From assembly GCF_008039565.1 (NCBI RefSeq), contig NZ_VDUX01000001.1, positions 310,001-374,000 on the forward strand: DNA of 64,000 nt, given 5' to 3'. Shown one piece after another: positions 49,259-64,000 of the stretch (position 1 is the stretch's first letter; each line of letters opens with the position of its first letter). The DNA is from Aeromicrobium terrae. Lineage in GTDB: Bacteria > Actinomycetota > Actinomycetes > Propionibacteriales > Nocardioidaceae. The notes beneath the pieces are model-generated. The model saw only the letters and a list, made by a program, of their open reading frames with translations, had not been told where the DNA came from and searched no databases. The translations under genes were made by a program, and so were the position numbers.

Positions 49259-50665
49259 GACCAGCGCCGGCGTGCGGCCGGGCCGCAGCTGCCGGGCGGC
49301 CATCGTGCCCGCGACGAGGACGGCCAGCAGCCCGAAGATCGACGCGGTGTCGAGCGCCTCGCGCACGCCCGGGATGAACTCGCCGGGCACGGCGTACGAG
49401 GCGTAGACCGACACGATGACGGCGAGTCCCAGGGCGCCGCCGATCTGCTGCGTCGTCTGGAGCATGCCGGCCGCGGTCCCGGTGTGACGGTCGTCGACCT
49501 TGGACAGCACCACCACGGTGATCGGCATGAACGCGAGCCCCGCGCCGATGCCGTTGATCAGCAGCGGCGTGGCGACGTCGCCCCAGTACGTGCTGGTCGT
49601 GGTGAGCTCCCGCAGCCAGGCAACGCTGATGAGTCCCAGCGTCGAGCCGGCGGTGATGAGCGGCCACGGGCCGAAGCGCGCCACCAGGCGCGGGGTCACC
49701 CGCGAGACCGCGAAGATCGCCAGGCTCAGCGGCAGGAACGCCAGCCCCGACGTGAAGGCGCCGAGGCCGAGCGTGCGCTGCATGAATTGCACCATGAGGA
49801 AGAACAGCGCCATCTGCACGCCGATGAACAGCATCATCGTGGTGAGAGCCGCGACGCGTGAGCGGGCCTGGAGCAGCGACGGCAGCAGCAGCGGCTGACG
49901 CGCCCGGCGCTCCACGGCGGCGAACGAGCTCAGCAGGGCGGCGGCGACGACGAACGCGCTGATCGTGACCGGCGACGTCCAGCCGTGGTCCGCGACGCTG
50001 ATGAACCCGTACACCAGGGCGACCGAGCCGGCCGTCGCGGTGATGGCGCCGAGCACGTCGAAGTGTCCGGGCTGACGGTTCGTCTCGGGAACGAAGCGAC
50101 GGACGAGCAGGACGGCCATGAGGCCGATCGGCACGTTGATGATCAGGGCCCAGCGCCACGAGGCGTACCCGGTGAGGGCGCCGCCGAGGATCAGGCCGAT
50201 GGAGGCGCCGGCGGACGACACCGCGCTGAACAGCGCGAGCCCGCGGTTGCGGGCCGCCTCGGTGGGCGCGCCGGCGACGATGAGCGCCAGCACGCTCGGA
50301 GCCGCGATGGCGGCGCCGACGCCTTGCAGGGCGCGGGAGGCGACGAGCATGGCGGGGTCCTGGGCCAGGCCGCCGAGCAGGGACGCCACCGAGAAGACGG
50401 TGACACCGATCTCGAACGACCGCAGGCGCCCGATGACGTCGCCGAGACGGCCGCCGAACAGCAGCAGGCCGCCGAAGGCGAGGGCGTAGGCGTTGAGGAC
50501 CCACGAGAGATTCGCCGCGCTGAACCCGAGGTCGGTCTTGAGCAGGGGGAGCGCGACGTTCACGACGGTCATGTCGAGGATGAGCATGAGCTGCGCCGTG
50601 AGCACCAGCGCAAGGCCGACGGTGGCCCGCCGTTGCGCCGGTGGAGCGGAGGTGATGGTGGTCAT
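49241..50665 (-). CDS. MFS drug/proton antiporter, DHA2 (EmrB/QacA) family
   Basis: 474 residues from the ATG at 50665, about 14 hydrophobic helices. Seen: motif LDMTVVNVALPLLKTDLGFS in helix 1, GGRLGDVIGRLRSF (loop 2-3 motif A), ALQGVGAAIAAPSVLALI (motif B) and GASIGLILGGALTGYASWRWALIINVPIG in pieces (motif C and the DHA2 signature). Exports an unknown drug or metabolite. Divergent from a TetR gene across twin operators, so it is probably repressed by it. The pair interrupts the normal rsmB-rpe neighbourhood. Confidence 0.92.
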   Translation of the reverse strand: MTTITSAPPAQRRATVGLALVLTAQLMLILDMTVVNVALPLLKTDLGFSAANLSWVLNAYALAFGGLLLFGGRLGDVIGRLRSFEIGVTVFSVASLLGGLAQDPAMLVASRALQGVGAAIAAPSVLALIVAGAPTEAARNRGLALFSAVSSAGASIGLILGGALTGYASWRWALIINVPIGLMAVLLVRRFVPETNRQPGHFDVLGAITATAGSVALVYGFISVADHGWTSPVTISAFVVAAALLSSFAAVERRARQPLLLPSLLQARSRVAALTTMMLFIGVQMALFFLMVQFMQRTLGLGAFTSGLAFLPLSLAIFAVSRVTPRLVARFGPWPLITAGSTLGLISVAWLRELTTTSTYWGDVATPLLINGIGAGLAFMPITVVVLSKVDDRHTGTAAGMLQTTQQIGGALGLAVIVSVYASYAVPGEFIPGVREALDTASIFGLLAVLVAGTMAARQLRPGRTPALVSAATE

Positions 50666-50710
50666 GAAGACGGCTTTCTGTCGTACGAGTCGAAGTGACG
50701 TACACTGGAA

Positions 50711-50725
50711 CGGAGGATGACTCCG
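50711..50725. promoter_or_regulatory. Putative TetR operator 1
   Basis: CGGAGGATGACTCCG is a 5+5 base inverted repeat with 5-base spacer, in the divergent region between the efflux gene and the TetR gene. A second copy lies 33 bases on. Confidence 0.7.
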
Positions 50726-50743
50726 GTTACTTGACCGACTATA

Positions 50744-50758
50744 CGGAGAGTGTCTCCG
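50744..50758. promoter_or_regulatory. Putative TetR operator 2
   Basis: CGGAGAGTGTCTCCG shares both arms and the flanking ACGGAG/CTCCGGT with operator 1 but has a different spacer. It lies 22 bases before the GTG of the regulator, so binding should affect both divergent promoters; TATAC at 50740-50744 may be part of the -10 box. Confidence 0.7.
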
Positions 50759-50779
50759 GTTAGCAAGGAGGGTTGTGCT

Positions 50780-51394
50780 GTGGCCTCCACCACACCTGCC
50801 GTCATCGCGTCCGAGGAGACCGCCAAGCCGAGGCGCGCGGACGCCCAGCGGAACTACGACAAGCTGCTCGCCGCGGCCCGGGAGATCTTCCGGGAGCACG
50901 GGGCCCAGGCGTCGCTGGACGACATCGCCAAGCGCGCGGGCGTCGGTCCGGGCACCTTGTACCGGCACTTCCCGACGCGCGACGACCTGATCGACGCCGT
51001 CATGCGCGAGTGGTCCGAGGACGTCGACTCCGACAGTGACGAGGTCATCGCCGCGGGCCTCGACGCCCAGGAGACGCTGCGGACGTGGTTCGGCAAGTTC
51101 GTCGAGAACATCGGCGTCTACCGCGGCGCCGCCGCCAAGGTGATGTCCGCGATGGACGACGAGTCCTCGCCGATCTACCGCAAGTGCCAGGTCCTGGTCG
51201 GCGCGAACGACAAGGTCCTCACGCACCTGGCCGGCCGGGGCGAGCTGCGCGACGGCGTCGACTCGCGCGAGGTCATGCGGCTCGTCAGCGGCATCGCCAC
51301 CGTCGCCGACCAGTCGCACCTGAGCGTGGACGAGTCCACGCCGATGCTCGACATCGTGATCCAGGGCATCCTGCGCGACCCGTCGGCACCCTGA
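50780..51394 (+). CDS. TetR-family transcriptional repressor
   Basis: 204 residues from GTG 50780 with AAGGAGGG 7 bases upstream; earlier in-frame starts to 50750 would overlap operator 2. N-terminal helix-turn-helix (about 25-70): ARE-IFREHGAQASLDDIAKRAGVGPGTLYRHFPTRDDLI in pieces, the textbook TetR pattern. The C-terminal ligand domain (FGKFVENIGVYRG, SGIATVADQS) matches the SbtR-like group loosely. It probably controls the divergent efflux gene and itself through the two palindromes. Confidence 0.92.
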   Translation: MASTTPAVIASEETAKPRRADAQRNYDKLLAAAREIFREHGAQASLDDIAKRAGVGPGTLYRHFPTRDDLIDAVMREWSEDVDSDSDEVIAAGLDAQETLRTWFGKFVENIGVYRGAAAKVMSAMDDESSPIYRKCQVLVGANDKVLTHLAGRGELRDGVDSREVMRLVSGIATVADQSHLSVDESTPMLDIVIQGILRDPSAP

Positions 51395-51413
51395 GCTCCC
51401 ACTAGGCTTTCGG

Positions 51414-51455
51414 GGTCTCGATACATCCCGCTCGTTCCTCGCGGGACACTCGACC
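51414..51455. repeat. Palindromic extragenic element upstream of rpe
   Basis: GGTCTCGA at the left and TCGACC at the right enclose an inner TCCCGC...GCGGGA stem. It resembles short dispersed palindromes often seen between genes in GC-rich actinobacteria. It may also end the tetR transcript. Confidence 0.45.
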
Positions 51456-51463
51456 TCCTTCGC

Positions 51464-51469
51464 TACGCT
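51464..51469 (+). promoter_or_regulatory. Putative -10 box for leaderless rpe transcript
   Basis: TACGCT is 6 bases before ATG 51476 with no ribosome binding site. Confidence 0.45.
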
Positions 51470-51475
51470 CCGGAC

Positions 51476-52141
<666 letters not shown>

Positions 52142-52153
52142 CGAGGTCCGCGC

Positions 52154-52159
52154 TAGACT
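52154..52159 (+). promoter_or_regulatory. Putative -10 box of the riboflavin operon
   Basis: TAGACT lies about 27 bases before the riboswitch helix P1, suitable for a start near 52166. Confidence 0.5.
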
Positions 52160-52180
52160 GAGGGCAACGAGCAACACGCT

Positions 52181-52312
52181 CGCGTGCACAGGGGTCGGTG
52201 AAATTCCGAGCCGGCGGTGACAGTCCGCGACCCGAGTCCAGCTTGCTGGACGAGGTTGAACCGGTGGAACTCCGGTACCGACGGTCAGAGTCCGGATGGG
52301 ATGCGCACGCGT
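52181..52312 (+). ncRNA. FMN riboswitch (RFN element)
   Basis: The conserved core is clear: AGGGGTCGGTGAAATTCCGA, CCGGCGGTGACAGTCCGCGA, GGTTGAACCGGTGGAACTCC and GGTACCGACGGTCAGAGTCC, then GGATGGGA. The ends CGCGTGCAC and TGCGCACGCG pair as helix P1. About 76 bases separate it from ribD and no terminator with a U-run is seen, so control of translation is more likely than attenuation. FMN binding should shut ribD-ribE-ribBA-ribH. Confidence 0.96.
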
Positions 52313-52388
52313 CGGGTTCCGCGTCGCGTGAGTGACGCCCGCCCGCCATCGCCCCGGTGCACCAGGAGATCTGGAGCTGGAGAGAACG

Positions 52389-53426
52389 ATGGCCACCGAG
52401 ACGGAGCTGCGAGCGATGCGCCGCGCGATCGACGTCGCGCGCTCCGTGCCCCGCACGCTGCCGAACCCGCGGGTCGGCTGCGTCCTCCTGGCGCCGGACG
52501 GCGCCGAGATCGCCGTCGGCGTCCACCGTGGTGCCGGCACGCCGCACGCGGAGGCCGACGCCCTCGCGCGGGCGGGGGACCAGGCGCGTGGTGCCACGGC
52601 CGTCGTCACGCTCGAGCCCTGCAACCACACCGGACGCACCGAGCCGTGTGCCAGCGCGCTGATCGCGGCCGGCGTCGCCCGCGTCATCCATGCCCAGACC
52701 GATCCGAACCCGAAGGCTGCCGGGGGAGCGGCCGCGCTCCAGGCCGCGGGCATCAACGTGGAGTCCGGCGTGCTCGCCGACGAGGCCACCGCGCTGAACG
52801 TCGAGTGGACCTTTTCCATCACGCACGGCCGTCCGTTCGTCACCTGGAAGTACGCCGCGACGCTCGACGGGCTGAGCGCCGCGCCCGACGGCAGCAGCAA
52901 GTGGATCACCAGCGCGGAGGCACGTCGCGACGTCCAGGCGTTCCGTGCCGAGTCCGACGCGATCATGGCCGGCACCGGCGCGGTCCTTGCCGACGACCCC
53001 CGCCTCACCGTGCGCGACGAGGACGACCTGCCGCTGCCCTACGAGCAGCAGCCGTTGCGCGTCGTGGTCGGCGAGACGCAGATCCCGCAGTACTACCGGG
53101 TGTTCGACCGGGTCGCCCCGACACTCCTGATCCAGAGCCGCGACCCCGACACGGTCCTGGCCAAGCTGACCGAGAACGAGATCCACCACGTCTGGCTGGA
53201 GGGCGGTCCGCGTCTCGCCGGCGGGTTCTGGAACGCCGGGCTGATCGACCGCGTCATCGGCTACATCGCGCCGTCCATGCTCGGCTCCGGCCGCGCCGCC
53301 CTGGAGGGCGAGGCCACCACGCTCGCCGACCTGCGCCCCATCGACGTGCAGGACCTGCGCACCGTCGGGCCCGACATCCGCATCATCGGCACGCCTGGTC
53401 GCTGCGCACGAGAGGAGATGCCCTGA
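52389..53426 (+). CDS. ribD: Bifunctional riboflavin biosynthesis deaminase/reductase RibD
   Basis: 345 residues from ATG 52389 with GGAGAG upstream; the frame is open to 52332, which lies in the leader. Deaminase half (about 1-140) with zinc ligands in HAEADAL and PCNHTGRTEPC, reductase half from about 150 with KYAATLDGLSAAPDGSSKWI and EGGPRLAGGFW. Carries out the second and third steps of riboflavin synthesis. TGATG junction with ribE. Confidence 0.95.
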   Translation: MATETELRAMRRAIDVARSVPRTLPNPRVGCVLLAPDGAEIAVGVHRGAGTPHAEADALARAGDQARGATAVVTLEPCNHTGRTEPCASALIAAGVARVIHAQTDPNPKAAGGAAALQAAGINVESGVLADEATALNVEWTFSITHGRPFVTWKYAATLDGLSAAPDGSSKWITSAEARRDVQAFRAESDAIMAGTGAVLADDPRLTVRDEDDLPLPYEQQPLRVVVGETQIPQYYRVFDRVAPTLLIQSRDPDTVLAKLTENEIHHVWLEGGPRLAGGFWNAGLIDRVIGYIAPSMLGSGRAALEGEATTLADLRPIDVQDLRTVGPDIRIIGTPGRCAREEMP

Positions 53427-54058
53427 TGTTCACCGGACTGGTCGAGGAGACCGGCACCGTCACCGCGATCGAGTCGCTCGGCGACTCGGTCCGCCTCACC
53501 GTGCGCGGCCCCGTCGTCACCGCCGACGCCACGCACGGCGCGTCGATCGCCGTGAACGGCTGCTGCCTGACCGTGATGGCCCAGGACGACGACACGTTCT
53601 CCGCCGACGTCATGGCCGAGTCGCTCGCCAAGACGTCGCTCGGCGACCTCGCGGTGGGCGACGCCGTGAACCTCGAGCGCGCCATGGCCGCCGGCGCCCG
53701 GATGGGCGGACACGTCGTCCAGGGCCACGTCGACGGCACCGGCACGCTGATCGACCGCACGCCCGGTGACCACTGGGAAGTGCTGCGCTTCGCGATCCCG
53801 GCCGAGCTGGCCCGCTACCTGGTGCCCAAGGGCTCCATCACCGTCGACGGGGTCTCGTTGACCGTCGTCGACGTCGTCGACGCGGTGCCGGACGAGGAGG
53901 GGGAGCCCTGGTTCTCGGTCTCCCTGATCCCCACGACCCTCGCCGACACCACGCTCGGCACCACGCGACCCGGCGACCGGGTCAACCTCGAGGTGGACAT
54001 CCTCGCCAAGTACGTCGAGCGGCTGCTGGCCGCTCAGCAGAAGGAGGCACGCGCATGA
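53426..54058 (+). CDS. ribE: Riboflavin synthase alpha subunit
   Basis: 210 residues. Internal duplication of the lumazine-binding fold: [12 protein letters not shown] and NGCCLTVM in the first half, [12 protein letters not shown] and [13 protein letters not shown] in the second. Forms riboflavin by dismutating two lumazines. The stop overlaps the ribBA ATG (ATGA). Confidence 0.96.
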
Positions 54059-55275
54059 AGGTGCGACTCGACAGCATCGAACGGGCGCTCGCTGACATCC
54101 GCGACGGCAAGGCCGTCGTCGTGGTCGACGACGAGAACCGCGAGAACGAGGGCGACATCATCTTCGCCGCCAGCAAGGCGACGCCGGAGCTGATGGGCTT
54201 CCTCGTGCGGCACTCCAGCGGCTACGTCTGCGCGCCGATCACCGGGGAGATCCTCGACCGCCTCGGCATCCCGCTGATGACGCCACACAACCGCGAGCTG
54301 ATGCGCACCGCGTACACGATCTCCATCGACGCCCGCGACGGCATCACCACCGGCATCTCTGCCGCCGACCGCGCGCGCACGTGCCGCGTGCTGGCCGACT
54401 CGGCCACGGAGCCGTTCGAGCTCGTCCAGCCCGGCCACGTCCTGCCGCTGCGCGCCAAGGACGGCGGGGTGCTGGAGCGCGCCGGCCACACCGAGGCCGC
54501 CGTCGACCTGACCCGGCTCGCCGGGCTCACCCCGGCCGGCGTGATCGGCGAGGTCGTCCACGACGACGGCACGCTGATGCGCGCCCCCGCGTTGCGGGAG
54601 TTCGCCGACGAGAACGACCTCGCTCTCGTCTCGATCGAGGACCTGCAGATCTATCGCCGCCTGCACGAGTCGCAGGTCGAGCGGCTGGCCGAGACCAGCC
54701 TGCCCACGGAGTTCGGGCAGTTCACCGCGCTCGGCTACCGGGACACGATCGACGGCTCCGAGCACATCGCCCTCGTCCACGGTGAGCCGAGCACCCAGGA
54801 TGTCCTGGTGCGCCTGCACTCGGAGTGCCTGACCGGCGACGTGCTCGGCTCGCGTCGTTGCGACTGCGGCCCGCAGCTCCAGGCGTCGATGGCCGAGATC
54901 ACCGCCGAGGGCGCCGGCGTGGTCGTCTACCTCCGCGGCCACGAGGGTCGCGGCATCGGCCTGCTGCACAAGCTGCAGGCGTACGCGCTGCAGGACGACG
55001 GTCGCGACACGGTCGACGCGAACCTCGAGCTCGGGTTCGCCGAGGACGACCGCGACTACGCCGCGGGCGCGCAGATCCTGCGCGACCTCGGCATCACCTC
55101 GGTCCGCCTGCTCACCAACAACCCGGACAAGGCGAACGGCCTGGAGACGTACGGCGTCAAGGTGGCCGAGCGCCTGCCGCTGGCCATCACGCCGACGCCG
55201 GAGAACATCCGGTACCTGCGCACCAAGGCCGAGCGGATGGGTCACGACCTGCCCGGGCTGGAGGTCCCCGAATGA
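54055..55275 (+). CDS. ribBA: Bifunctional DHBP synthase / GTP cyclohydrolase II
   Basis: 406 residues. RibB half (about 1-200): [28 protein letters not shown], and [10 protein letters not shown]. RibA half from about 205: zinc cysteines in [20 protein letters not shown] and the arginine loop [10 protein letters not shown], then [15 protein letters not shown]. It starts both branches of riboflavin synthesis from GTP and ribulose-5-P. Coupled to ribE and ribH. Confidence 0.97.
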
Positions 55276-55745
55276 GCGGGCACGGAGCACCCAGCCTGCA
55301 CGTCGACGCCGCCGGCGCACGCGTCGCGGTCGTCGCGTCCAGCTGGCACGACGAGGTGATGGACGGGCTGCTGGCCGGCGCCCAGACCGCGCTCGCCGAC
55401 GCCGGGGTCACCGACGTCACTGTGCTGCGCGCCCCGGGCTCGTTCGAGCTGCCGATCATCGCCCAGGCCTGCGCGACGTCCGGGTACGACGCCGTCATCG
55501 CGCTCGGTGTGATCATCCGCGGCGGCACGCCGCACTTCGAGTACGTCAGCGCCGCCGCCACCGACGGCTTGGCGCGCGTCGCACTCGACACCGGCGTCCC
55601 GGTCGGCTTCGGCCTGCTCACGTGCGACGACGAGCAGCAGGCCCTCGACCGGGCCGGTCTGCCGGACAGCCGGGAGGACAAGGGCCGCGAGGCCGTCGAG
55701 GCCGCGCTGGCGACGTGGACGGTGCTGCGCGGCGTCCGGGGCTAG
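55272..55745 (+). CDS. ribH: 6,7-dimethyl-8-ribityllumazine synthase
   Basis: 157 residues. Seen: [16 protein letters not shown], the substrate loop [30 protein letters not shown] with the catalytic His, and [16 protein letters not shown]. Forms the icosahedral or pentameric lumazine synthase. ATG inside the ribBA stop. Confidence 0.95.
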
Positions 55746-55757
55746 CTCGCGGGCCGA

Positions 55758-55763
55758 TACGCT
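55758..55763 (+). promoter_or_regulatory. Putative -10 box for hisE-hisG
   Basis: TACGCT is 9 bases before ATG 55773 with no ribosome binding site; this spacing is a little longer than for the other leaderless-type starts. Confidence 0.35.
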
Positions 55764-55772
55764 GGACACACG

Positions 55773-56036
55773 ATGAAGACCTTCGACCAGCTGTTCGCCG
55801 AGCTCGCCGACAAGGCGAGCACCCGCCCAGAGGGCTCGCGCACCGTCGCCGAGCTCGACGCCGGCGTGCATGCGATCGGCAAGAAGCTGGTCGAGGAGGC
55901 GGCGGAGTCGTGGATGGCGGCGGAGCACGAGAGCCCCGAACGCGCGGCCGAGGAGATCAGCCAGCTGCTCTACCACGCCCAGGTGATGATGCTCGCGAAG
56001 GGCATCACCCTCGACGACGTCTACGCCCACCTGTAA
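55773..56036 (+). CDS. hisE: Phosphoribosyl-ATP pyrophosphatase
   Basis: 87 residues. All-alpha MazG-like fold: [33 protein letters not shown] with the metal-binding E..E pattern, and [14 protein letters not shown]. Second step of histidine synthesis. Ten bases before hisG. Confidence 0.94.
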
Positions 56037-56046
56037 GAGGACCTTC

Positions 56047-56895
56047 ATGCTCAAGATCGCCGTCCCCAACAAGGGGTCACTCGCCGACGCCGCGGCCCAG
56101 ATGCTGCAGGAGGCCGGCTACCGCCAGCGCCGCAGCGCCAAGGACCTCGTGGTCCTGGACGCCGACAACGGCGTCGAGCTGTTCTACCTGCGCCCGCGCG
56201 ACATCGCCATCTACGTGGGGGAGGGCACGCTCGACGTCGGCATCACCGGCCGCGACCTGCTGCTCGACTCCGGCGCCAGCGCCACCGAGGTGATGCCGCT
56301 CGGCTTCGCCGCCTCCACGTTCCGCTACGCCGCGCCCACCGGCACGATGAGCGACACCGCCGACCTCGCCGGCGCCCGCATCGCCACATCGTACCCGGGC
56401 ATCGTCGAGCGCGACCTCACCGCCCGCGGGATCGACGCCACCGTCGTCCGGCTGGACGGTGCGGTCGAGTCGTCGGTGCGCCTCGGCGTGGCCGACGCCA
56501 TCGCCGACGTCGTCGAGACCGGCAGCACGCTCCGCCAGGCCGACCTCGAGGTCTTCGGCGACCCGATCCTCGCGTCGGAGGCCGTGCTGGTCACGCACGC
56601 CCGCGGTGACGAGCCGGCCGAGGGCTTCGACGTGTTCAAGCGGCGCCTCGACGGCGTCATCGCCGCGCGGAACTACGTCATGGTCGAGTACGACATCCCG
56701 TCCGACCTCGTCGACCGAGCGGTCGAGCTGACGCCGGGCATGGACTCGCCGACGATCTCGCCGCTGCGACTCGAGGGCTGGGTCGAGGTGCGGTCGATGG
56801 TGCCGCGCGACGCGGCGCAGAAGATCATGGACGGCCTGTACGACCTCGGCGCCCGCGGCATCCTCGTCACGGACATCCTGGCGTGTCGAGTGTGA
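56047..56895 (+). CDS. hisG: ATP phosphoribosyltransferase, long form
   Basis: 282 residues, so the long form with its own regulatory domain and no HisZ partner. Catalytic domains: LKIAVPNKGSLADAA, EGTLDVGITGRDLL, ATSYPGIVERDL and the PRPP loop region VADAIADVVETGSTL. The C-terminal ACT-like histidine-binding domain is from about residue 205 (MDSPTISPLRLEGWVEVRSMV). AGAGG is present before the ATG. Overlaps the next gene by 13 bases. Confidence 0.95.
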   Translation: MLKIAVPNKGSLADAAAQMLQEAGYRQRRSAKDLVVLDADNGVELFYLRPRDIAIYVGEGTLDVGITGRDLLLDSGASATEVMPLGFAASTFRYAAPTGTMSDTADLAGARIATSYPGIVERDLTARGIDATVVRLDGAVESSVRLGVADAIADVVETGSTLRQADLEVFGDPILASEAVLVTHARGDEPAEGFDVFKRRLDGVIAARNYVMVEYDIPSDLVDRAVELTPGMDSPTISPLRLEGWVEVRSMVPRDAAQKIMDGLYDLGARGILVTDILACRV

Positions 56896-57293
56896 CGTAC
56901 CGACCCGTCGGGGCCCGGATCGTCGCCTACGGGTCGTCCGTCGCGCTGGTCGTCGTCACGATCGTCATCGGCGTCGCGCTGCCGTCGGACATCGAGTTCA
57001 CGGTCCCGGAGCTGATCACGCTCGCCCTGACCCTGGGCGCCATGCTCGCGGTGCTGCACGGCATCGGGCGCAGCTACGTGCGCGCCGACGACACCGGCCT
57101 GGAGATCCTCAACGGCTACCGGCGCCACCACATCCCGTGGGACCGGATGAAGGGCATCTCGATGAACACCGGCGCGCCCTGGCCGACCCTCGTCCTGAAG
57201 GACGACGACCGCGTCCTGCTGTTCGCCATCCAGGGCTCCGACGGGGCGACGGCCCGCGCCGCCGTCGACGACCTGGTCCGGCGGATCCCGTGA
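56883..57293 (+). CDS. PH-like domain membrane protein (PH_6/DUF2581 type)
   Basis: 136 residues. Two N-terminal transmembrane helices (about 12-30 and 38-58), then a cytoplasmic PH-like beta domain with DDTGLEILNGYRRHHIPWDRM and LVLKDDDRVLLFAIQ. Members commonly follow hisG in actinobacteria; function unknown. Start GTG 56883 lies inside hisG; GTG 56892 is an alternative. The stop overlaps the next GTG. Confidence 0.83.
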   Translation: MSSVTYRPVGARIVAYGSSVALVVVTIVIGVALPSDIEFTVPELITLALTLGAMLAVLHGIGRSYVRADDTGLEILNGYRRHHIPWDRMKGISMNTGAPWPTLVLKDDDRVLLFAIQGSDGATARAAVDDLVRRIP

Positions 57294-57682
57294 GCCCGTC
57301 GCTGGCCGAACCGGCTTTTCCCGACGACGACGGGGAGGCCTACCCGGAGCTCGCCCGTGCGCTGGGGGACGAGACCGCTGTCGCAGCGGTGCTGCCGGAC
57401 GTTCGTGTCTTCGTGCCCGTGGTCGCACTGCTGGGAGACGTACCCGCGGATGGCGACAAGGAAGCAGACATGGCGGCGGTGCTGATGACCGGCGCCGACG
57501 GTCGTCAGGCCCTGCTGACGTTCAGCAGCGTCGACGCGATGAGGGCCTGGAACCCCGAGGCCCGGCCGGTGCCGGTGTGGGGCCGCGACGCTGCCCGGGC
57601 CGCCCTGGACGAGGGCGCGTCGGCGCTCCTGGTCGACCTCGGCAGCCCGGGGTTCACCGTGGTGGAGATCAGCGCGGGCTGA
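57290..57682 (+). CDS. SseB-family N-terminal domain protein
   Basis: 130 residues. It has the SseB-like pattern seen in many actinobacterial small proteins: FVPVVALL, AAVLMTGADGRQALLTFSSVDAMRAWNP and ALLVDLGSPGFTVVEI. Function unknown; no enzymatic motif is seen. GTG start coupled to the PH-like gene. Its 3' end overlaps the convergent ACT-GNAT gene by 14 bases. Confidence 0.82.
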   Translation: MSPSLAEPAFPDDDGEAYPELARALGDETAVAAVLPDVRVFVPVVALLGDVPADGDKEADMAAVLMTGADGRQALLTFSSVDAMRAWNPEARPVPVWGRDAARAALDEGASALLVDLGSPGFTVVEISAG

Positions 57683-58655
57683 GCGGCAGGGTCACGTGCA
57701 GCTCGTCGTCGTGACGCTCGACCCGGGCGACGAAGCCGGCCGACCCCACGGCGCGCAGCACCCGGTCGTCGGCGGCGCCGGACACGATCGTGAGCCGCTC
57801 GAGCCCGCGCTCGCGCGCGACGCGAGCGCCCTGCCGCACGAGCATGGTGGTCAGGCCCCGGTCGCGCCACGCGTCCTCCACCAGGATCCGGAGCGTCCAG
57901 CGGCCCTGTTCCTCCTCGAGCACCGCGTGCGCCACGAGGTCGAGACCGGACTGCACCACGAGGGCGTGTCCGTGGTCCGGCTGCACGAGCCGCCGCGCCA
58001 TCCGCGTGGTCAGCGGCATGCGGAGCGGCACCTGGTAGCGCGCGTACAGCGTCTCGATGCTGCACCGCTCGTGCAGCGCGGCGACGCCCTCGAGGTCCGC
58101 CGGGGCGGCGTCGCGGACCATCGGTGACGGGCCGAGGTCCGTCGGGGCGATCAGCGGCTGGTCGAACCCGGCGTCACCCACGAGCGAGAGCAGCGCCTGT
58201 GCCCGGGAGCGCTCGACCGGCGTGAACGGCACCGCCCGGCTCACTCGAAGGGTCCGGCCGTCGCGGCGGACGAGGTCCAGCACGTCGTGGCCCCGGTAGT
58301 CGGCGACGTCCGGCGTCTCCGTGCCGAGGAGCTCCCGCAGCACCTCCTCGACGGGGCGGCCGCCGTCCAGCACCTCGGACGCGCCCGCCAGGTAGCGCGT
58401 CGGCGCGTCGTCCGGGGCGCCGGCCGACACCCGGGTGGCGACGACGTCCTCGCCGCCGGCCTTCTCGAACAGGTCGGCGACCTGCACGTCGGTCCAGCCG
58501 TCCGGAGCGACGACCACCAGCTCGTCGGTGACGTGCGGCGACCCCGGGAACACCTGCATGCCGACGATGTTGAGCTCCGCCTCGCCGCACGCGGCCGCGA
58601 TCCGCGCCAGGAGTCCTGGGCGGTCGGGGAGCGTGGTCCTGACCCGCCATTGCAT
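57669..58655 (-). CDS. ACT domain / GNAT acetyltransferase fusion
   Basis: 328 residues. N-terminal ACT-like domain (about 1-70): RVRTTLPDRPGLLARIAAACGEAELNIVGMQVF, in pieces, the classic ligand-binding start. A linker follows and then a GNAT fold (about 178-320) with MVRDAAPADLEGVAALHERC, VEDAWRDRGLTTMLVRQGARVA (acetyl-CoA loop; R-x-x-G-L/x degenerate) and RAVGSAGFVARV. It may be an amino-acid-regulated protein acetyltransferase, as in ACT-controlled lysine acetyltransferases; that function is inference. It is the only reverse gene in the region and lies just before the infC promoter. Confidence 0.85.
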   Translation of the reverse strand: MQWRVRTTLPDRPGLLARIAAACGEAELNIVGMQVFPGSPHVTDELVVVAPDGWTDVQVADLFEKAGGEDVVATRVSAGAPDDAPTRYLAGASEVLDGGRPVEEVLRELLGTETPDVADYRGHDVLDLVRRDGRTLRVSRAVPFTPVERSRAQALLSLVGDAGFDQPLIAPTDLGPSPMVRDAAPADLEGVAALHERCSIETLYARYQVPLRMPLTTRMARRLVQPDHGHALVVQSGLDLVAHAVLEEEQGRWTLRILVEDAWRDRGLTTMLVRQGARVARERGLERLTIVSGAADDRVLRAVGSAGFVARVERHDDELHVTLPLSPR

Positions 58656-58734
58656 GGATCCAGGGTGCTCCGCGCTCGTTGCCGCCCCGCGACGTCGCGG
58701 TTTCGATCAGGTCAACAGTCCGGCGTCGGCGGAT

Positions 58735-58764
58735 TTCACGAGATCACAGGCTCGCTGGTAGACT
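58735..58764 (+). promoter_or_regulatory. Putative infC operon promoter
   Basis: TTCACG (58735-58740) and extended -10 TGGTAGACT (TAGACT 58759-58764) are 18 bases apart. A start near 58771 would give a leader of about 170 bases. Confidence 0.55.
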
Positions 58765-58770
58765 CAGAAG

Positions 58771-58940
58771 TGAAGTGGAGATCACTCCCACCTGCTTGAT
58801 CCGCGGATCTTGGGGTTGACGGCCGGAATTCCGGCTGGGTGGTTGCGTCCCGCGCGAGCGGGGAATGCGCCGCCGGTGGCCTTCGTTTCGCACGGAGGTC
58901 ATTTTTTTTATGGCCTCCCACACGACCATCAGGAGGATCC
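58771..58940 (+). promoter_or_regulatory. Structured leader of infC with mutually exclusive pairings
   Basis: Several hairpins are possible: GCCGGAATTCCGGC (58822-58835), TCCCGC-GCGA-GCGGGGA (around 58848-58865), and GGAGGTCAT / ATGGCCTCC (58894-58902 with 58910-58918) closed by a loop of seven T. CCTCC at 58914-58918 can pair either with GGAGG at 58894-58898 or with the Shine-Dalgarno GGAGG at 58932-58936. This suggests translational autoregulation of IF3. No Rfam family was recognised. Confidence 0.55.
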
Positions 58941-59630
58941 ATCAGCACAGAGCTGCGCGTCAACGATCGCATTCGCGTCCCGGAGGTCCGACTCGTCGGC
59001 CCCAGCGGCGAGCAAGTCGGCATCGTCCGTATCGAGCAGGCCCTCAGCCTCGCTGCCGAGGTCGATCTCGATCTCGTCGAGGTGGCCCCGACGGCACGCC
59101 CCCCGGTCTGCCGGATCATGGACTACGGCAAGTTCAAGTACGAAGCCGCCCAGAAGGCACGCGAGTCACGGCGCAACCAGACGAACACCATCATCAAGGA
59201 GATGAAGCTCCGCCCGAAGATCGACCAGCACGACTACGACACCAAGAAGGGTCACGTCGTCCGGTTCCTGAAGGCAGGCGACAAGGTCAAGATCACGATC
59301 ATGTTCCGCGGTCGCGAGCAGCACCGTCCCGAGCTCGGGTACCGGCTGCTGCAGAAGCTGGCCGAGGACGTGCAGGATCTCGGCGTCGTCGAGGCGCACC
59401 CGCGCCAGGACGGCCGCAACATGACGATGGTGCTCGCGCCGCTCAAGAAGAAGTCCGAGGCCCAGGCCGAGGTCAAGGCCGAGAAGGCCCAGGCCACGGC
59501 GAACAAGGCAGCGGAACGCGAAGCCGAGGCGGAGGCCGAGAAGGCCCACCGTGAGGAACAGAAGAAGACCGCGACCCCGAAGAAGCCCCGGCGTCGCTCC
59601 GAGAACCTCGACCCAGACATGGAGGCATGA
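58941..59630 (+). CDS. infC: Translation initiation factor IF-3, ATC start
   Basis: 229 residues. Homology starts [20 protein letters not shown], and the codon at 58941 is ATC, 4 bases after AGGAGG. No ATG, GTG or TTG fits the family N-terminus; the nearest in-frame upstream start (58839) adds 34 unrelated residues. Rare start codons on infC (ATT in E. coli) allow IF3 to repress its own synthesis. N-domain to about residue 80, linker, C-domain with [14 protein letters not shown] long Ala/Glu/Lys-rich tail (about 180-229) is lineage-specific. Confidence 0.95.
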
Positions 59631-59631
59631 G

Positions 59632-59826
59632 ATGCCGAAGTTCAAGCCCCACTCGGGCATGAAGAAGCGCGTCAAGATCACCGGCAAGGGCAAGCTGCGC
59701 CGCGAGCAGGCCAACCGCCGTCACCTGCTGGAGCACAAGACCAGCACCCGGACCCGCCGCCTGGACGGCACGGTCGACGTGTCGAAGGCGGACACCAAGA
59801 AGGCCAAGAAGCTGCTCGGCCTCTGA
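59632..59826 (+). CDS. rpmI: 50S ribosomal protein L35
   Basis: 64 residues from ATG 59632, one base after the infC stop. Conserved [20 protein letters not shown] and RRHLLEHKT, very basic. Part of the infC-rpmI-rplT operon. Confidence 0.97.
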
Positions 59827-59864
59827 GGCGAGCCCACCGAACTCTGATCTGAAGGAGAACTGAG

Positions 59865-60257
59865 ATGGCACGCGTCAAGCGTTCTGTCAACGCACAGAAG
59901 AAGCGCCGCGAGACTCTCGAGCGCGCATCGGGCTACCGCGGCCAGCGGTCCCGTCTGTACCGCAAGGCCAAGGAGCAGGTCACGCACTCGCTGGTCTACT
60001 CCTACCGCGACCGCAAGGCGCGCAAGGGTGACTTCCGCCGGCTCTGGATCCAGCGCATCAACGCTGCCGTCCGTGCCGAGGGCATGACCTACAACCGCTT
60101 CATCCAGGGCCTGCGGGCCGCGGGTGTCGAGGTCGACCGCAAGAACCTCGCCGAGCTCGCGGTGAACGAGCCGGCGGCGTTCTCTGCGCTCGTCCAGGTC
60201 GCCAAGGACAACCTGCCGGCCGACGTCAACGCTCCCAAGGACGACGCGGCTGCCTGA
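59865..60257 (+). CDS. rplT: 50S ribosomal protein L20
   Basis: 130 residues. [38 protein letters not shown] in pieces, [20 protein letters not shown] and a short C-terminal extension. AAGGAG lies about 8 bases before the ATG. A known 23S-binding assembly protein, which in some bacteria also represses this operon. Confidence 0.97.
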
Positions 60258-60279
60258 GCAGCTTCGCGTCCTCCCGCAC

Positions 60280-61095
60280 GTGGCGAGCACAGAACAGAGC
60301 AACGAGGGGCCGCTCACCGTCCGTAGTGGACGCGTGAAGCACGCTCGGCGGCTCGCCACTCGTGCGTTCCGGGACAAGACCGGCGAGTTCCTCGCCGAGG
60401 GGCCGCAGGCCGTGCGCGAGGCCCTGGCGGCCGGCGCCGTGATCGAGGTCTTCGCCACGTCCAAGTACGACGACTGGCGCGACGACGCCGTCACCTGGAA
60501 CGTCGTCGACGACGACCTGCTGGGCGAGATCGCCGACGCGGTCACGCCGCAGGGCATCGTCGCCCGGTGTCGCAGCGTGGTCGGGACGCTCGACGACCTG
60601 CCGGCCGAGGCCGGCTTCGTCGTGGTCTGCGCCGACGTCCGCGATCCCGGCAACGCCGGTGCCGTGATCCGCTGTGCCGACGCGGCCGGCGCCGACGCGG
60701 TGATCCTCGCCGGCGACAGCGTCGACCCCCTGAACCCCAAGGCGGTCCGGGCCGGCGTCGGCAGCCTGTTCCACCTGCCCGTCGTGGTGGACGGCGACGT
60801 CGCCGCGGTGATCGCCCTCCTGCGCGAGCGCGGTCTCCGCGTGCTGGCGGCCGACGGCCACGGCGAGCTCGACCTGTTCGACCCCGCCGTCGACCTCGTG
60901 CCGCCCACGGCCTGGCTGTTCGGCAACGAGGCGTGGGGCCTGCCGGAGGACGTCCGGGACCTCGCCGACGCCGTCGTCGCGGTCCCGATCTTCGGCCGCG
61001 CGGAGAGCCTGAACCTGGCCACCGCCGCCGCCGTCTGCCTGTACGCCACGGCCTGGGCACGACGACGTGACCCCGAGGTTGACGTACGCAACTAG
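60280..61095 (+). CDS. TrmH/SpoU-family RNA 2'-O-methyltransferase
   Basis: 271 residues. N-terminal substrate-binding domain (RLATRAFRDKTGEFLAEGPQAVREAL) and SPOUT knot with ADVRDPGNAGAVIRCADAAGA (motif 1), LFGNEAWGLP (motif 2) and IFGRAESLNLATAAAVCLY (motif 3). Acts on 23S rRNA or tRNA. The position after rplT is standard in actinobacteria, where relatives include thiostrepton-type (TsnR) methylases; resistance cannot be claimed from sequence alone. Confidence 0.92.
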   Translation: MASTEQSNEGPLTVRSGRVKHARRLATRAFRDKTGEFLAEGPQAVREALAAGAVIEVFATSKYDDWRDDAVTWNVVDDDLLGEIADAVTPQGIVARCRSVVGTLDDLPAEAGFVVVCADVRDPGNAGAVIRCADAAGADAVILAGDSVDPLNPKAVRAGVGSLFHLPVVVDGDVAAVIALLRERGLRVLAADGHGELDLFDPAVDLVPPTAWLFGNEAWGLPEDVRDLADAVVAVPIFGRAESLNLATAAAVCLYATAWARRRDPEVDVRN

Positions 61096-61111
61096 TCCCT
61101 TCGGACTAGTT
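61090..61111 (+). terminator. Perfect 9-base stem-loop overlapping the methyltransferase stop codon
   Basis: AACTAGTCC and GGACTAGTT flank a CTTC loop. The stop codon TAG lies in the left arm. The stem is less GC-rich than the surroundings and no U-tract follows, so it may be a weak terminator or a protein-binding site. Confidence 0.5.
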
Positions 61112-61116
61112 CGTAC

Positions 61117-61122
61117 TACCCT
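61117..61122 (+). promoter_or_regulatory. Putative -10 box for the histidine kinase gene
   Basis: TACCCT is 6 bases before ATG 61129, with no ribosome binding site. Confidence 0.4.
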
Positions 61123-61128
61123 CCCGCC

Positions 61129-62163
61129 ATGGACCTCGACGAGTTCCCCGACGGCGTGCTGATCGCCGGACCGGACGGAACCGTCGAGTACGTCAATGCC
61201 CGCATCCGGGCCATGGCGCGCGCCACCGGCGACGAGATGATCGGGATGCGCCTGGAGGACGCGCTCCCGTTCGACGACCTCAACGGCAACTCCTGGTACG
61301 CGTGCACCCGGCCGTACGACGGCCTGAGCACGCGCACCCGCATCTCCGAGCAGGCCTGGTGGTCACCGCGGGGGAGTGAGTACCTGATCACCGCACGGCT
61401 CATCCGTGACCGTCCTGGCGGCAAGGTCCAGCGGGTGGTCGTCGGCGTGCGCAACGCCCGCATCCGCAACCAGCGCGACCGCGAGCGGTCCGACCTGGTC
61501 GCCACCGTCGCGCACGAGCTCCGCTCGCCGCTCACCGGCATCAAGGGATTCACCTCGACCCTGCTGACGAAGTGGGACCGGTTCTCCGAGGAGCAGCGCC
61601 AGCTGATGCTGGAGACCGTCGACGCCGACGCCGACCGGCTCAGCCGCCTGATCACCGAGCTCCTCGACGCCGCCCGCATCGACTCCGGACGGCTGACGCT
61701 GCGACGTGGGCCCGTCCGCCTCGACGAGGTCGCGCGGCACGTCATGACGATCGTCTCGGCGGGCGCCGGCGACCCGTTCGCCGTCACCGCGCCGGACGAC
61801 GTGCCGACCATCTGGGGCGACGCCGACCGGCTCACCCAGGTCGTCACGAACCTGGTCGAGAACGCCATGCGGCACGGGTTCGGCCTCAAGAAGGTCGAGG
61901 TCAGTCCCACCAGTCCGCCCGACGACGGCGTGGCCCTGGAGATCCACGACAACGGACCGGGCATCCCCAAGGAGATGCGCCAGCGGGTCTTCAGTCGCTT
62001 CTGGCGGGCCGGTCCCGGGGCGGGCAGCGGCCTCGGCATGTACATCGTCCGCGGCATCGTCGAGGAGCACGGCGGCTCCATCGACATCCAGGACTCCGAC
62101 GGCGGCGGCGCCCTGATCCGGATCTGGCTCCCGGTCAACGAGCCCGACGCCCTGGCTGAATAG
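61129..62163 (+). CDS. Soluble PAS-domain sensor histidine kinase
   Basis: 344 residues. PAS-like domain at about 5-110 (EFPDGVLIAGPDGTVEYVN), HisKA dimerisation helix with phospho-acceptor His129 in VATVAHELRSPLTGIKGF, and HATPase with N box LVENAMRHG, G1 IHDNGPGIP and G2 GSGLGMYIVRGIVEEHGG. No transmembrane helix is present, so it senses a cytoplasmic cue. No response regulator is adjacent, so it is an orphan kinase. Its TAG stop begins the hexamer before pheS. Confidence 0.94.
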   Translation: MDLDEFPDGVLIAGPDGTVEYVNARIRAMARATGDEMIGMRLEDALPFDDLNGNSWYACTRPYDGLSTRTRISEQAWWSPRGSEYLITARLIRDRPGGKVQRVVVGVRNARIRNQRDRERSDLVATVAHELRSPLTGIKGFTSTLLTKWDRFSEEQRQLMLETVDADADRLSRLITELLDAARIDSGRLTLRRGPVRLDEVARHVMTIVSAGAGDPFAVTAPDDVPTIWGDADRLTQVVTNLVENAMRHGFGLKKVEVSPTSPPDDGVALEIHDNGPGIPKEMRQRVFSRFWRAGPGAGSGLGMYIVRGIVEEHGGSIDIQDSDGGGALIRIWLPVNEPDALAE

Positions 62164-62166
62164 ACT
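62161..62166 (+). promoter_or_regulatory. Putative -10 box for pheS, overlapping the kinase stop codon
   Basis: TAGACT, formed from the upstream stop TAG plus ACT, 7 bases before GTG 62174, with no ribosome binding site. Confidence 0.5.
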
Positions 62167-62173
62167 CCTCTTC

Positions 62174-63274
62174 GTGCCATCGAGCTCCGACTACGACCCC
62201 GTCGAGGTCACGCCCCTGCGTGCCGACGAGGTCGAGCGCATGCGTGACGACGCCCTCGCGGCCATCGCCAAGGCGGCGACGCTCGCCGAGCTGAAGCAGG
62301 TACGCATCGATCACGCCGGTGACCGCTCGCCGCTCGCACTCGCGAACCGCGAGATCGGCGCGCTGCCGCCGCAGGCCCGCAAGGAGGCCGGCCAGCGCGT
62401 CGGCCAGGCCCGCGGCGCCGTCAGCGAGGCGCTCGCGGCGCGGACCGCCGAGGTGGAGGCCGCGGAGCTGGAGCAGTCGCTGGCCGCCGAGGCCGTCGAC
62501 GTCACCCTGCCGGTCGACGTGGAGCCGGTCGGATCCCGCCACCCGCTCACGACGATCTCCGAGCACGTCGCCGACATCTTCATCGCCATGGGCTGGGAGA
62601 TCGCCGAGGGCCCCGAGGTCGAGGCCGAGTGGCTCAACTTCGACGCCCTCAACCTCGGTCCCGACCACCCGGCCCGCACGATGCAGGACACCTTCTGGGT
62701 GAGCCCGGAGAGTGCCGCCATGGTGCTGCGCACGCACACGTCGCCCGTCCAGGCGCGCACGATGCTCACGCGCACGCCCCCGATCTACATCGCCTGCCCG
62801 GGCCGGGTGTTCCGCACCGACGAGCTCGACGCCACGCACTCGCCGGTCTTCCACCAGGTCGAGGGGCTGGCCATCGACGAGGGCCTGTCGATGGCCCACC
62901 TCAAGGGCACGCTCGACCACTTCGCCCAGGCGATGTTCGGCGACGGCATCACCACGCGGTTCCGCCCCTCGTACTTCCCGTTCACCGAGCCCAGCGCCGA
63001 GGTCGACCTGCTCTGCCACGTCTGCCACAACGTGCCGGGCACCGTCGAGAGCTGCCGCACGTGCAAGGGCGAGGGCTGGATCGAGTGGGGCGGCTGCGGC
63101 GTCGTGAACCCGCGCGTGCTGATCGCCTGCGGCGTGGATCCCGAGCGCTATTCCGGCTTCGCCTTCGGCATGGGTCTGGACCGCACCATCACCGGCCGCT
63201 ACGACATCGCCGACCTGCGCGACCTGTTCGACGGCGACATCCGCTTCACCGAGCCGTTCGGGGTTGGTCTGTAG
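62174..63274 (+). CDS. pheS: Phenylalanyl-tRNA synthetase alpha subunit
   Basis: 366 residues. N-terminal coiled-coil arm (about 15-100), then the class II core: HPLTTISEHVADIFIAMGW, FDALNLGPDHPARTMQDTF, RTHTSPVQARTM (motif 2 region), FHQVEGLAIDEG, FRPSYFPFTEPSAEVD and motif 3 GFAFGMGLDRT. A CxxC...CxxC set (CHVCHNVPGTVESCRTC) is inserted near residue 280, a feature of some family members. GTG start, leaderless-type. TAGTG junction with pheT. Confidence 0.96.
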   Translation: MPSSSDYDPVEVTPLRADEVERMRDDALAAIAKAATLAELKQVRIDHAGDRSPLALANREIGALPPQARKEAGQRVGQARGAVSEALAARTAEVEAAELEQSLAAEAVDVTLPVDVEPVGSRHPLTTISEHVADIFIAMGWEIAEGPEVEAEWLNFDALNLGPDHPARTMQDTFWVSPESAAMVLRTHTSPVQARTMLTRTPPIYIACPGRVFRTDELDATHSPVFHQVEGLAIDEGLSMAHLKGTLDHFAQAMFGDGITTRFRPSYFPFTEPSAEVDLLCHVCHNVPGTVESCRTCKGEGWIEWGGCGVVNPRVLIACGVDPERYSGFAFGMGLDRTITGRYDIADLRDLFDGDIRFTEPFGVGL

Positions 63275-64000
63275 TGCGCGTCCCCATCGAGTGGCTGCGC
63301 GAGCTCGTCGCGCTGCCGGACGACCTCACCGCCGAGCAGATCGCTGCCCGCCTGACCGCGTTCGACCTCAAGCTCGAGGAGATCATCTCCGCCGGGCTGT
63401 CCGGCCCGATCGTGGTCGGCCGCGCCCTGAGCGTCGAGCCGGAGCCGCAGAAGAACGGCAAGACCATCAACTGGTGCCAGGTCGACGTGGGGGAGGACGA
63501 GCCGCGCGGCATCGTCTGCGGTGCCCACAACTTCGGCCCGGACGACCTCGTCGTCGTCGCGCTGCCCGGCGCCACCCTGCCCGGCGACTTCACGATCACC
63601 GCCCGCAAGACTTACGGCCACGTCTCCGACGGCATGATCTGCTCGCCGCCGGAGCTCGGGCTATCCGGCGACTCTGCCTTCCTCCGCCCAGGGCCCGGAA
63701 CCCCTGCCGAGTCGGGCATCCTCGTGCTCGACGCTGAGTCCGCCCAGCCGGGCGACGACGCCGTGGCGCTGCTCGGTCTCGGCGGCGACGTCGTCGACCT
63801 CGAGGTCAACCCGGATCGCGCCTACGCGCTGTCGATGCGCGGCGTCGCCCGTGACGCCGCCCTGGCCTTCGGCCTGCCGTTCTCCGACCCCGCCGATCGC
63901 GACGTCCCGGCCGACGGTGAGGCGTACCCGGTCCGGGTCGACGACCCGGCCGGCTGCCCGGTCTTCGTCGCCCGTGAGGTCACCGGGTTCGACCCCTCGC
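63274..64000 (+). CDS. pheT: Phenylalanyl-tRNA synthetase beta subunit, 3' end outside window
   Basis: First 242 codons of about 830. GTG 63274 shares a base with the pheS stop. Seen: VRVPIEWLRELV, the tRNA-binding OB domain with GRALSVEP, IVCGAHNFGPDDLVVVALPGATLPG, KTYGHVSDGMICS, and the start of B1 with DLEVNPDRAYALSMRGVARD. After SPPELGL there is an unusual stretch SGDSAFLRPGPGTPAES, about 12 residues longer than the ELxLGxDHSGI form I recall from other actinobacteria, and with codons ending in A or T (CTA, TCT, CCA, GGA, CCT). Confidence 0.95.
   Translation, partial: MRVPIEWLRELVALPDDLTAEQIAARLTAFDLKLEEIISAGLSGPIVVGRALSVEPEPQKNGKTINWCQVDVGEDEPRGIVCGAHNFGPDDLVVVALPGATLPGDFTITARKTYGHVSDGMICSPPELGLSGDSAFLRPGPGTPAESGILVLDAESAQPGDDAVALLGLGGDVVDLEVNPDRAYALSMRGVARDAALAFGLPFSDPADRDVPADGEAYPVRVDDPAGCPVFVAREVTGFDPS

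Follow-up and report, generated by a model that had tools for sequence, protein, structure and literature searches.

The infC-rpmI-rplT leader of Aeromicrobium terrae as a probable feedback attenuator with its terminator wired to the ribosome-binding site

Introduction

Attenuators of the Escherichia coli trp type are built from several strands whose neighbouring pairings are mutually exclusive. A close described counterpart of the locus reported here is the L20 leader of Bacillus subtilis, which shares with it the operon (infC-rpmI-rplT), the place of the leader and the use of a leader terminator as the switch (PMC6097659, PMC10931766). In that organism bL20 attenuates the operon via a terminator at the same leader position, and the available text of the source describes the leader RNA as narrowly distributed in Firmicutes (PMC6097659). 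A second described control, autocontrol by IF3 through a rare start codon (ATT in E. coli, and ATC in Streptomyces according to the accessible part of PMC5472188), shares the ATC codon with our locus but acts at the start codon itself, unlike the leader structure considered below.

In the actinobacteria, transcript data come from other organisms. Expression of scr1601 has been confirmed in Streptomyces coelicolor, and its homologue in S. ambofaciens is placed in a UTR and not counted as an sRNA (PMC8388888, as far as its available text goes); a report whose accessible portion does not name scr1601 finds that 12 previously described Streptomyces ‘sRNAs’ resemble 5′ UTRs with high expression (PMC3765725). 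The infC 5′ UTR of Mycobacterium tuberculosis is long (326 nt) and more abundant than the coding part, with a UTR/CDS read ratio of 2.6 during exponential growth and 4.9 in stationary phase. Drawing a parallel with L20 control in B. subtilis, the authors of that study suggest that regulation is post-transcriptional; the part of the paper available reports homology to the infA UTR and describes neither the element, the terminator nor the Shine-Dalgarno (SD) coupling discussed here (PMC3207917). Apart from that suggestion, our searches of an open-access library yielded no paper on the actinobacterial infC leader as an attenuator. Here we analyze this leader in A. terrae and its relatives, and consider it probable that it is a feedback attenuator whose terminator is coupled to ribosome binding.

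Results and Discussion

Operon context and the infC start codon

The window (the whole 64,000-nucleotide stretch of A. terrae DNA that was analyzed) carries infC, encoding IF3, at 58941–59630 of the forward strand, on which all features below lie; a translated search recovered relatives of this ORF at 67–95% identity. It is followed by ORFs at 59632–59826 and 59865–60257 which we take to be rpmI (bL35) and rplT (bL20), giving the order infC, rpmI, rplT after the leader. The in-frame infC start is the ATC at 58941–58943, and another ATC, at 58937 directly after GGAGG, is out of frame. The start is ATC in all 47 leaders from the genus Aeromicrobium, in 58 of 60 from the rest of the family (the remaining two have ATT) and in 77 of 80 named contigs, the other three having ATC directly before the matched start.

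Two other starts were considered and set aside. The ATG at 58910, with GGAGGT (58894–58899) in front of it, opens an out-of-frame reading frame and, by eye, is not conserved; that frame spans 58910–59554 and overlaps infC. A leaderless upstream ORF beginning at GTG 58770, nine codons long, was entertained as an IF3 sensor, and inspection of the relatives by eye showed no conserved start codon or frame.

A terminator-like hairpin and its alternative pairings

A scan of 58600–59000 returned a single terminator-like hairpin, at 58875–58903, which runs directly into a run of T. Its stem joins 58877–58886 to 58892–58901 and counts 12 pairs including two outer G.U pairs; arm A (58875–58888) forms the 5′ side, arm B (58892–58902) the 3′ side, and the eight T at 58902–58909 (T8) the U-tract. 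T8 is the sole run of eight T or A anywhere in the window, which is 71% GC. Hairpin and T8 together have the form of an intrinsic terminator, at which transcription would probably stop in vivo. Since this hairpin takes the GGAGG at 58894–58898 into its 3′ arm and T8 as its U-tract, the leader of infC-rpmI-rplT resembles a transcription attenuator, a reading to which its sequence points strongly.

The next strand, arm C (AUGGCCUCC, 58910–58918), contains CCTCC at 58914–58918 and has two possible partners. With arm B it reaches 9 bp (58894–58902 with 58910–58918, one G.U), leaving seven T (58903–58909) as the loop; the other partner is arm D, the infC SD sequence GGAGG at 58932–58936. B can therefore pair either with A or with C, and C either with B or with D, which recalls the mutually exclusive strands of the trp-type attenuators. 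Unlike those, this leader showed no conserved leader peptide, and its last strand is the SD and not a terminator strand.

Both partnerships of arm C exceed chance. When the 28-base stretch separating B from the SD was shuffled with dinucleotides preserved, complementarity to arm B at least as great as observed arose in 1/1000 shuffles and to the SD in 20/1000. The same test, with a threshold of 50/1000, was passed by 19/21 clusters of genus leaders for B and by 12/21 for D. The local fold has z = −2.97; the leader as a whole is less marked, at z = −1.64. The minimum-energy fold of the whole leader contains A:B and C:D together, whereas B:C appears in the fold of its last 81 bases. The first-pass annotation of this DNA had placed the three GGAGG and CCTCC arms, the T run and both CCTCC pairings where we find them, and its remark that eight consecutive T are rare in DNA of this GC content is borne out across the 64 kb.

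Conservation of the leader in relatives

infC was found in 47 of 49 Aeromicrobium genomes (G000 included), and the leader was read in these 47, of which 46 are distinct. All 46 have a recognisable 5′ motif (described below), both arms A and B and a GGAGG ahead of the start (arm A of one, L101, was set by hand), and at least four T occur in the eight bases after arm B in every one of them. Our own scan for a hairpin followed by at least four T in eight bases succeeded in 43/47 genus, 45/59 family and 66/73 named-contig leaders; the 4, 14 and 7 leaders in which it found no terminator are partly faults of the scan. A separate terminator finder sometimes chooses a larger upstream hairpin, and its counts serve as a guide only. 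A G-G mismatch in the terminator-like stem, with GGTGGCGTCC in arm A facing GGGGG in arm B, was seen in L108, L117, L120 and others.

Arm C is distributed more narrowly. CCTC precedes the SD in all 47 genus leaders, and the full CCTCC in 41 of them. Among the 60 further family leaders, which were picked among the matches listed (239 of 245 genomes matched) with different genera favoured and two of which (L155 and L157) are incomplete at contig ends, CCTC occurs in 18 and is missing from 42. It occurs in 12 of the 80 named contigs, three of these 80 being Aeromicrobium. Since so few other family leaders carry CCTC before the SD, the B:C/C:D toggle is a local refinement in the genus Aeromicrobium, the tail of a larger conserved leader.

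Covariation of the arms

Covariation was assessed with a partner-swap test, which asks whether an arm forms a better pairing with the partner strand of its own species than with one taken from another species. Across the 46 leaders, A:B averaged −17.56 kcal/mol with the own partner versus −16.84 with others, and B:C −14.76 versus −13.49; in neither case was any of 5000 permutations as good (0/5000 each). For C:D and X:A (X is introduced below) 1097/5000 and 726/5000 permutations did as well. The test was repeated with one leader per cluster at 80% identity (cut-off 0.80; 0.78 for the test of X against the downstream leader), which gave 21 clusters; these still share ancestry and are not fully independent, so that the permutation counts are not exact probabilities. 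At a cut-off of 0.70, or with a laxer identity measure, all leaders fell into one cluster and no test was possible. The 18 infC genes whose coding start fitted the pattern were used for a tree, on which no test rests.

With the 21 clusters, 20/20000 permutations were as good for A:B and 1/20000 for B:C, and 83/20000 for the B:C pairs outside CCUCC alone. The last B:C pair illustrates a compensatory change, being U-A in the window (58902:58910) and C-G in L083. C:D gave 12264/20000, a result that is uninformative because the SD hardly varies. The first-pass annotation had staked its proposed GGAGG:CCTCC toggle on conservation or compensatory change of the arms in close relatives, and the hairpin passed on both counts (CCTC in 47/47; 1/20000 over 21 clusters). 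What did not survive is the toggle as a free-standing device, since the terminator-like hairpin uses the same GGAGG in its 3′ arm and T8 as its U-tract.

These data bear on two alternatives. A plain attenuator would consist of the terminator and the 5′ element only; C would simply mask the SD or be a drifting copy of A, and B:C would serve no separate role. It suits the absence of CCTC from 42 of 60 other family leaders, a family in which the element and the terminator-like hairpin persist (hairpin plus T in 45 of the 59 scanned), but it leaves unexplained why B:C co-varies within the genus, also beyond CCUCC, and why CCTC is present in every genus leader; we regard it as unlikely, though as a serious competitor. 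A switch acting on translation only, in which B:C alternates with C:D and IF3 adds a second layer through the ATC start, draws on the two above-chance pairings in the window and on the invariant ATC of the genus; arm B, however, is at the same time a terminator arm with a U-tract, and binding by IF3 is unsupported, and we give this explanation little credence. A feedback attenuator with its terminator wired to the ribosome-binding site remains our preferred reading, and the sequence comparisons that argue for it are a conserved element before infC, a terminator-like hairpin conserved in the genus, and covariation of A:B and B:C.

A conserved element at the 5′ end

The leader begins with a conserved element at 58771–58817 (AAGUGGAG...CUCCCACC...GGGGU), for which a model, R1, was built from 60 elements, the window's own and both Streptomyces elements among them. 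R1 matched the window significantly at 58771–58817 only (43.7 bits, E = 4.5e-9; next best E = 0.31). Two hairpins can be drawn in it: P1, joining 58777–58780 to 58785–58788, and P2 (58790–58816), in which ACCU at 58790–58793 pairs with GGGU at 58813–58816 and an inner stem joins 58798–58802 to 58805–58809, as proposed from the sequence and the consensus fold. Leaders from the family, from Streptomyces and from several further named actinobacteria have in common the motif AAGYGG[AG]G...UCCCACC...GGGU, and a regular expression for it hit 166 of the 187 leaders fetched (some genomes are represented twice, and one miss is a cut contig). The 60 elements of R1 were chosen by this expression, so that its letters are invariant in the alignment by construction. 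Covariation in the element is slight, with changes on both sides in 2 of 9 predicted pairs, and the modelled structure of the element itself is weakly supported. An extension of P1 to GYG/CAC was rejected: in many family members the Y is a C that would face A, which breaks the pair (that A was fixed by the row-picking expression), and only GGRG/CUCC is kept.

In the window's class R1 matched 120/197 genomes and 62/90 genera, training genomes included, with one match per genome; in a sample of the phylum it matched 7/119, all seven within the same class. All 34 matches that were fetched of the 120 (the 30 top-ranking ones plus four others, with that of the window among them) precede an IF3 gene, which was recognised by pattern in 31 and by reading in three. 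As in autogenous leaders of ribosomal-protein operons, the 5′ UTR here carries a conserved, structured RNA, and an operon product probably binds to the element. Because the element is defined to 47 nt and occurs once per genome where found, the question of its ligand is directly testable.

Transcription probably begins at the element, since TANNNT lies 7–9 nt before the AAGYGGAG motif in 47/47 genus leaders. In the window this is the −10-like hexamer TAGACT (58759–58764), which would place the transcript start at about 58770–58772; a scan with the sigma-70 consensus found no promoter.

A candidate antiterminator strand

The 5′ side of P1 lies within strand X (58773–58785; AAGYGGAG plus the bases before CUCCC), which can form 9–13 pairs with arm A in 46/46 distinct genus leaders and is a candidate antiterminator. 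In the window this pairing is weak, at 9 pairs and −6.9 kcal/mol versus a mean of −16.3, and the best downstream partner of X is arm C, which does no better than shuffles (66/100); C rather than A is the best partner in 19/47 genus leaders. The best downstream partner of X beat shuffles at ≤5/100 in 31/47 genus, 23/59 family and 24/73 named-contig leaders, and outside the genus that partner was often, on reading and without a count, the 5′ arm of the terminator-like hairpin.

A partner-swap test that set X against the complete downstream leader, and not arm A alone, gave 36/20000 for 68 clusters (the family and other named leaders not of Streptomyces type, with at most three Aeromicrobium), 364/20000 for the family alone (46 clusters), 69/20000 for the family, other contigs and Aeromicrobium together (84 clusters) and 984/20000 for five Streptomyces clusters. 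Within Aeromicrobium no covariation was detected, either for X in this test (11205/20000) or for X:A (21 clusters, 5800/20000), and the variable part of X alone gave no significant result in any set. A role of X as antiterminator thus has moderate support in the relatives and weak support in the window.

In L132 and L133, which belong to one genus, no U-rich terminator was seen on reading and the 5′ element is clearly kept, as would be expected if the output part is exchangeable. X is complementary there to CGGUGGUC[UC]CCGCG near the SD, suggestive of translational control only.

Coupling of the terminator to the Shine-Dalgarno sequence

The consequences of the two partnerships of arm A were estimated on full leaders. 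With A:B forced, the SD was unpaired with a median probability of 0.03, versus 0.43 with X:A and B:C forced; the SD was more open in the latter state in 21/21 clusters, marginally so in L117. The terminator state is favoured by ~6 kcal/mol (full-length medians of −97.1 with A:B and −90.7 with X:A), which means that the leader would have to enter the open state co-transcriptionally, arm A being made before arm B. Arm B and the SD are separated by 25–70 nt in the 21 genus clusters, which leaves little room for a separate infC promoter after the terminator. We place moderate confidence in a coupling of terminator and SD in the genus Aeromicrobium; the antiterminator role of X:A, the order of folding and the masking of the SD by C are parts of it that we infer.

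The feedback attenuator would then work as follows. An operon product would bind the 5′ element (P1/P2, 58771–58817). With the factor bound, X would be held in P1, A would pair with B and RNA polymerase would stop at T8; in any transcript that leaked through, C would be free to cover the SD. With the factor absent, X would pair with A as A emerges, the leftover B would pair with C, and the SD would be open. If so, the leader would be a compact example of a single strand that governs termination as well as ribosome access, and the cell may be able to halt production of IF3 and of two ribosomal proteins at two stages simultaneously. A more ambitious version is possible rather than probable: a leak-proof attenuator in which the 3′ strand of the terminator controls the SD mask, such that leaked transcripts stay silent and only antiterminated RNAs are translated, built on an actinobacterial family of infC-leader elements (so far catalogued by Rfam as a Streptomyces ‘sRNA’ only) that would sense an operon product via a new RNA fold. 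The feedback attenuator itself would explain how the supply of IF3, bL35 and bL20 is set in many actinobacteria, antibiotic producers included.

As the factor we tentatively favour bL20, by analogy with B. subtilis. The first-pass annotation had cited L20 binding among the controls known from other bacteria, and this agrees with the available account of B. subtilis, in which control runs through a terminator in the same leader position (PMC6097659). A search for 23S rRNA mimicry as a bL20 site was unrewarding, with one 7-mer shared with the region examined and about one expected by chance on our own estimate. The annotation had also suggested two layers of IF3 autocontrol: an ATC start is indeed the rule (47/47 in the genus), and control by IF3 through it may add to the leader attenuator, but IF3 as the signal for the leader itself found no support.

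Relation to Scr1601 and other RNA families

The Streptomyces form of the 5′ element lies inside the Rfam family Scr1601 (RF02830). Like the window's leader, Scr1601 stands directly before infC, carries AAGUGGAG..CUCCCACCUG..GGGUC and ends in a final hairpin followed by a U-run; unlike it, the family is filed as an sRNA gene, and its arms A and B differ. RF02830 gave gathering-level matches directly before infC in three Streptomyces loci and none in one Kitasatospora locus; in 3 of 12 Nocardioidaceae loci it matched at the same place below the gathering threshold (L089 30.1, L004 26.4 and L020 20.1 bits, against 100), and it had no match in the window at 50000–64000 (E≤5) or 58700–58980 (E≤10). 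The 5′ element and a terminator-like end directly before infC are common to the RF02830 alignment and the window. That an independent small RNA of this type lies before infC by chance and ends at its own terminator, as the filing of the Streptomyces form as an sRNA gene might suggest, is very improbable, given that every fetched R1 match (34 of the 120) precedes infC, that the S. ambofaciens homologue lies in a UTR (PMC8388888, in its available text) and that the 25–70 nt between terminator and SD in the genus leave little promoter room. The feedback attenuator, by comparison, would reassign this Rfam ‘sRNA’ of Streptomyces as a cis-regulator, and the transcript data from S. ambofaciens, other Streptomyces and M. 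tuberculosis, organisms other than Aeromicrobium, fit premature termination.

The L20_leader family of Rfam (RF00558) is matched here by arrangement and not by its element: an infC-rpmI-rplT leader with a terminator-like hairpin and U-tract is present, as judged by sequence only, and the L20_leader covariance model had no match in the window at 50000–64000 (E≤5) or 58700–58980 (E≤10), in 12 Nocardioidaceae loci (E≤5) or in four Streptomycetaceae loci (gathering threshold). The Aeromicrobium leader differs from that of B. subtilis in this element and in adding a strand that would tie the terminator to the SD.

Many Streptomyces loci (L016–L079) show, by eye, a second conserved hairpin-like stretch, ACGCGGC..GUCCGCCAGAC..GCCGUGU, between the terminator and the SD. 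It sits ~20–50 bases before the infC start and may act as arm C does in Aeromicrobium. Elsewhere in the window, an FMN riboswitch (Rfam RF00050, 90.4 bits) was identified at 52180–52312 on the forward strand.
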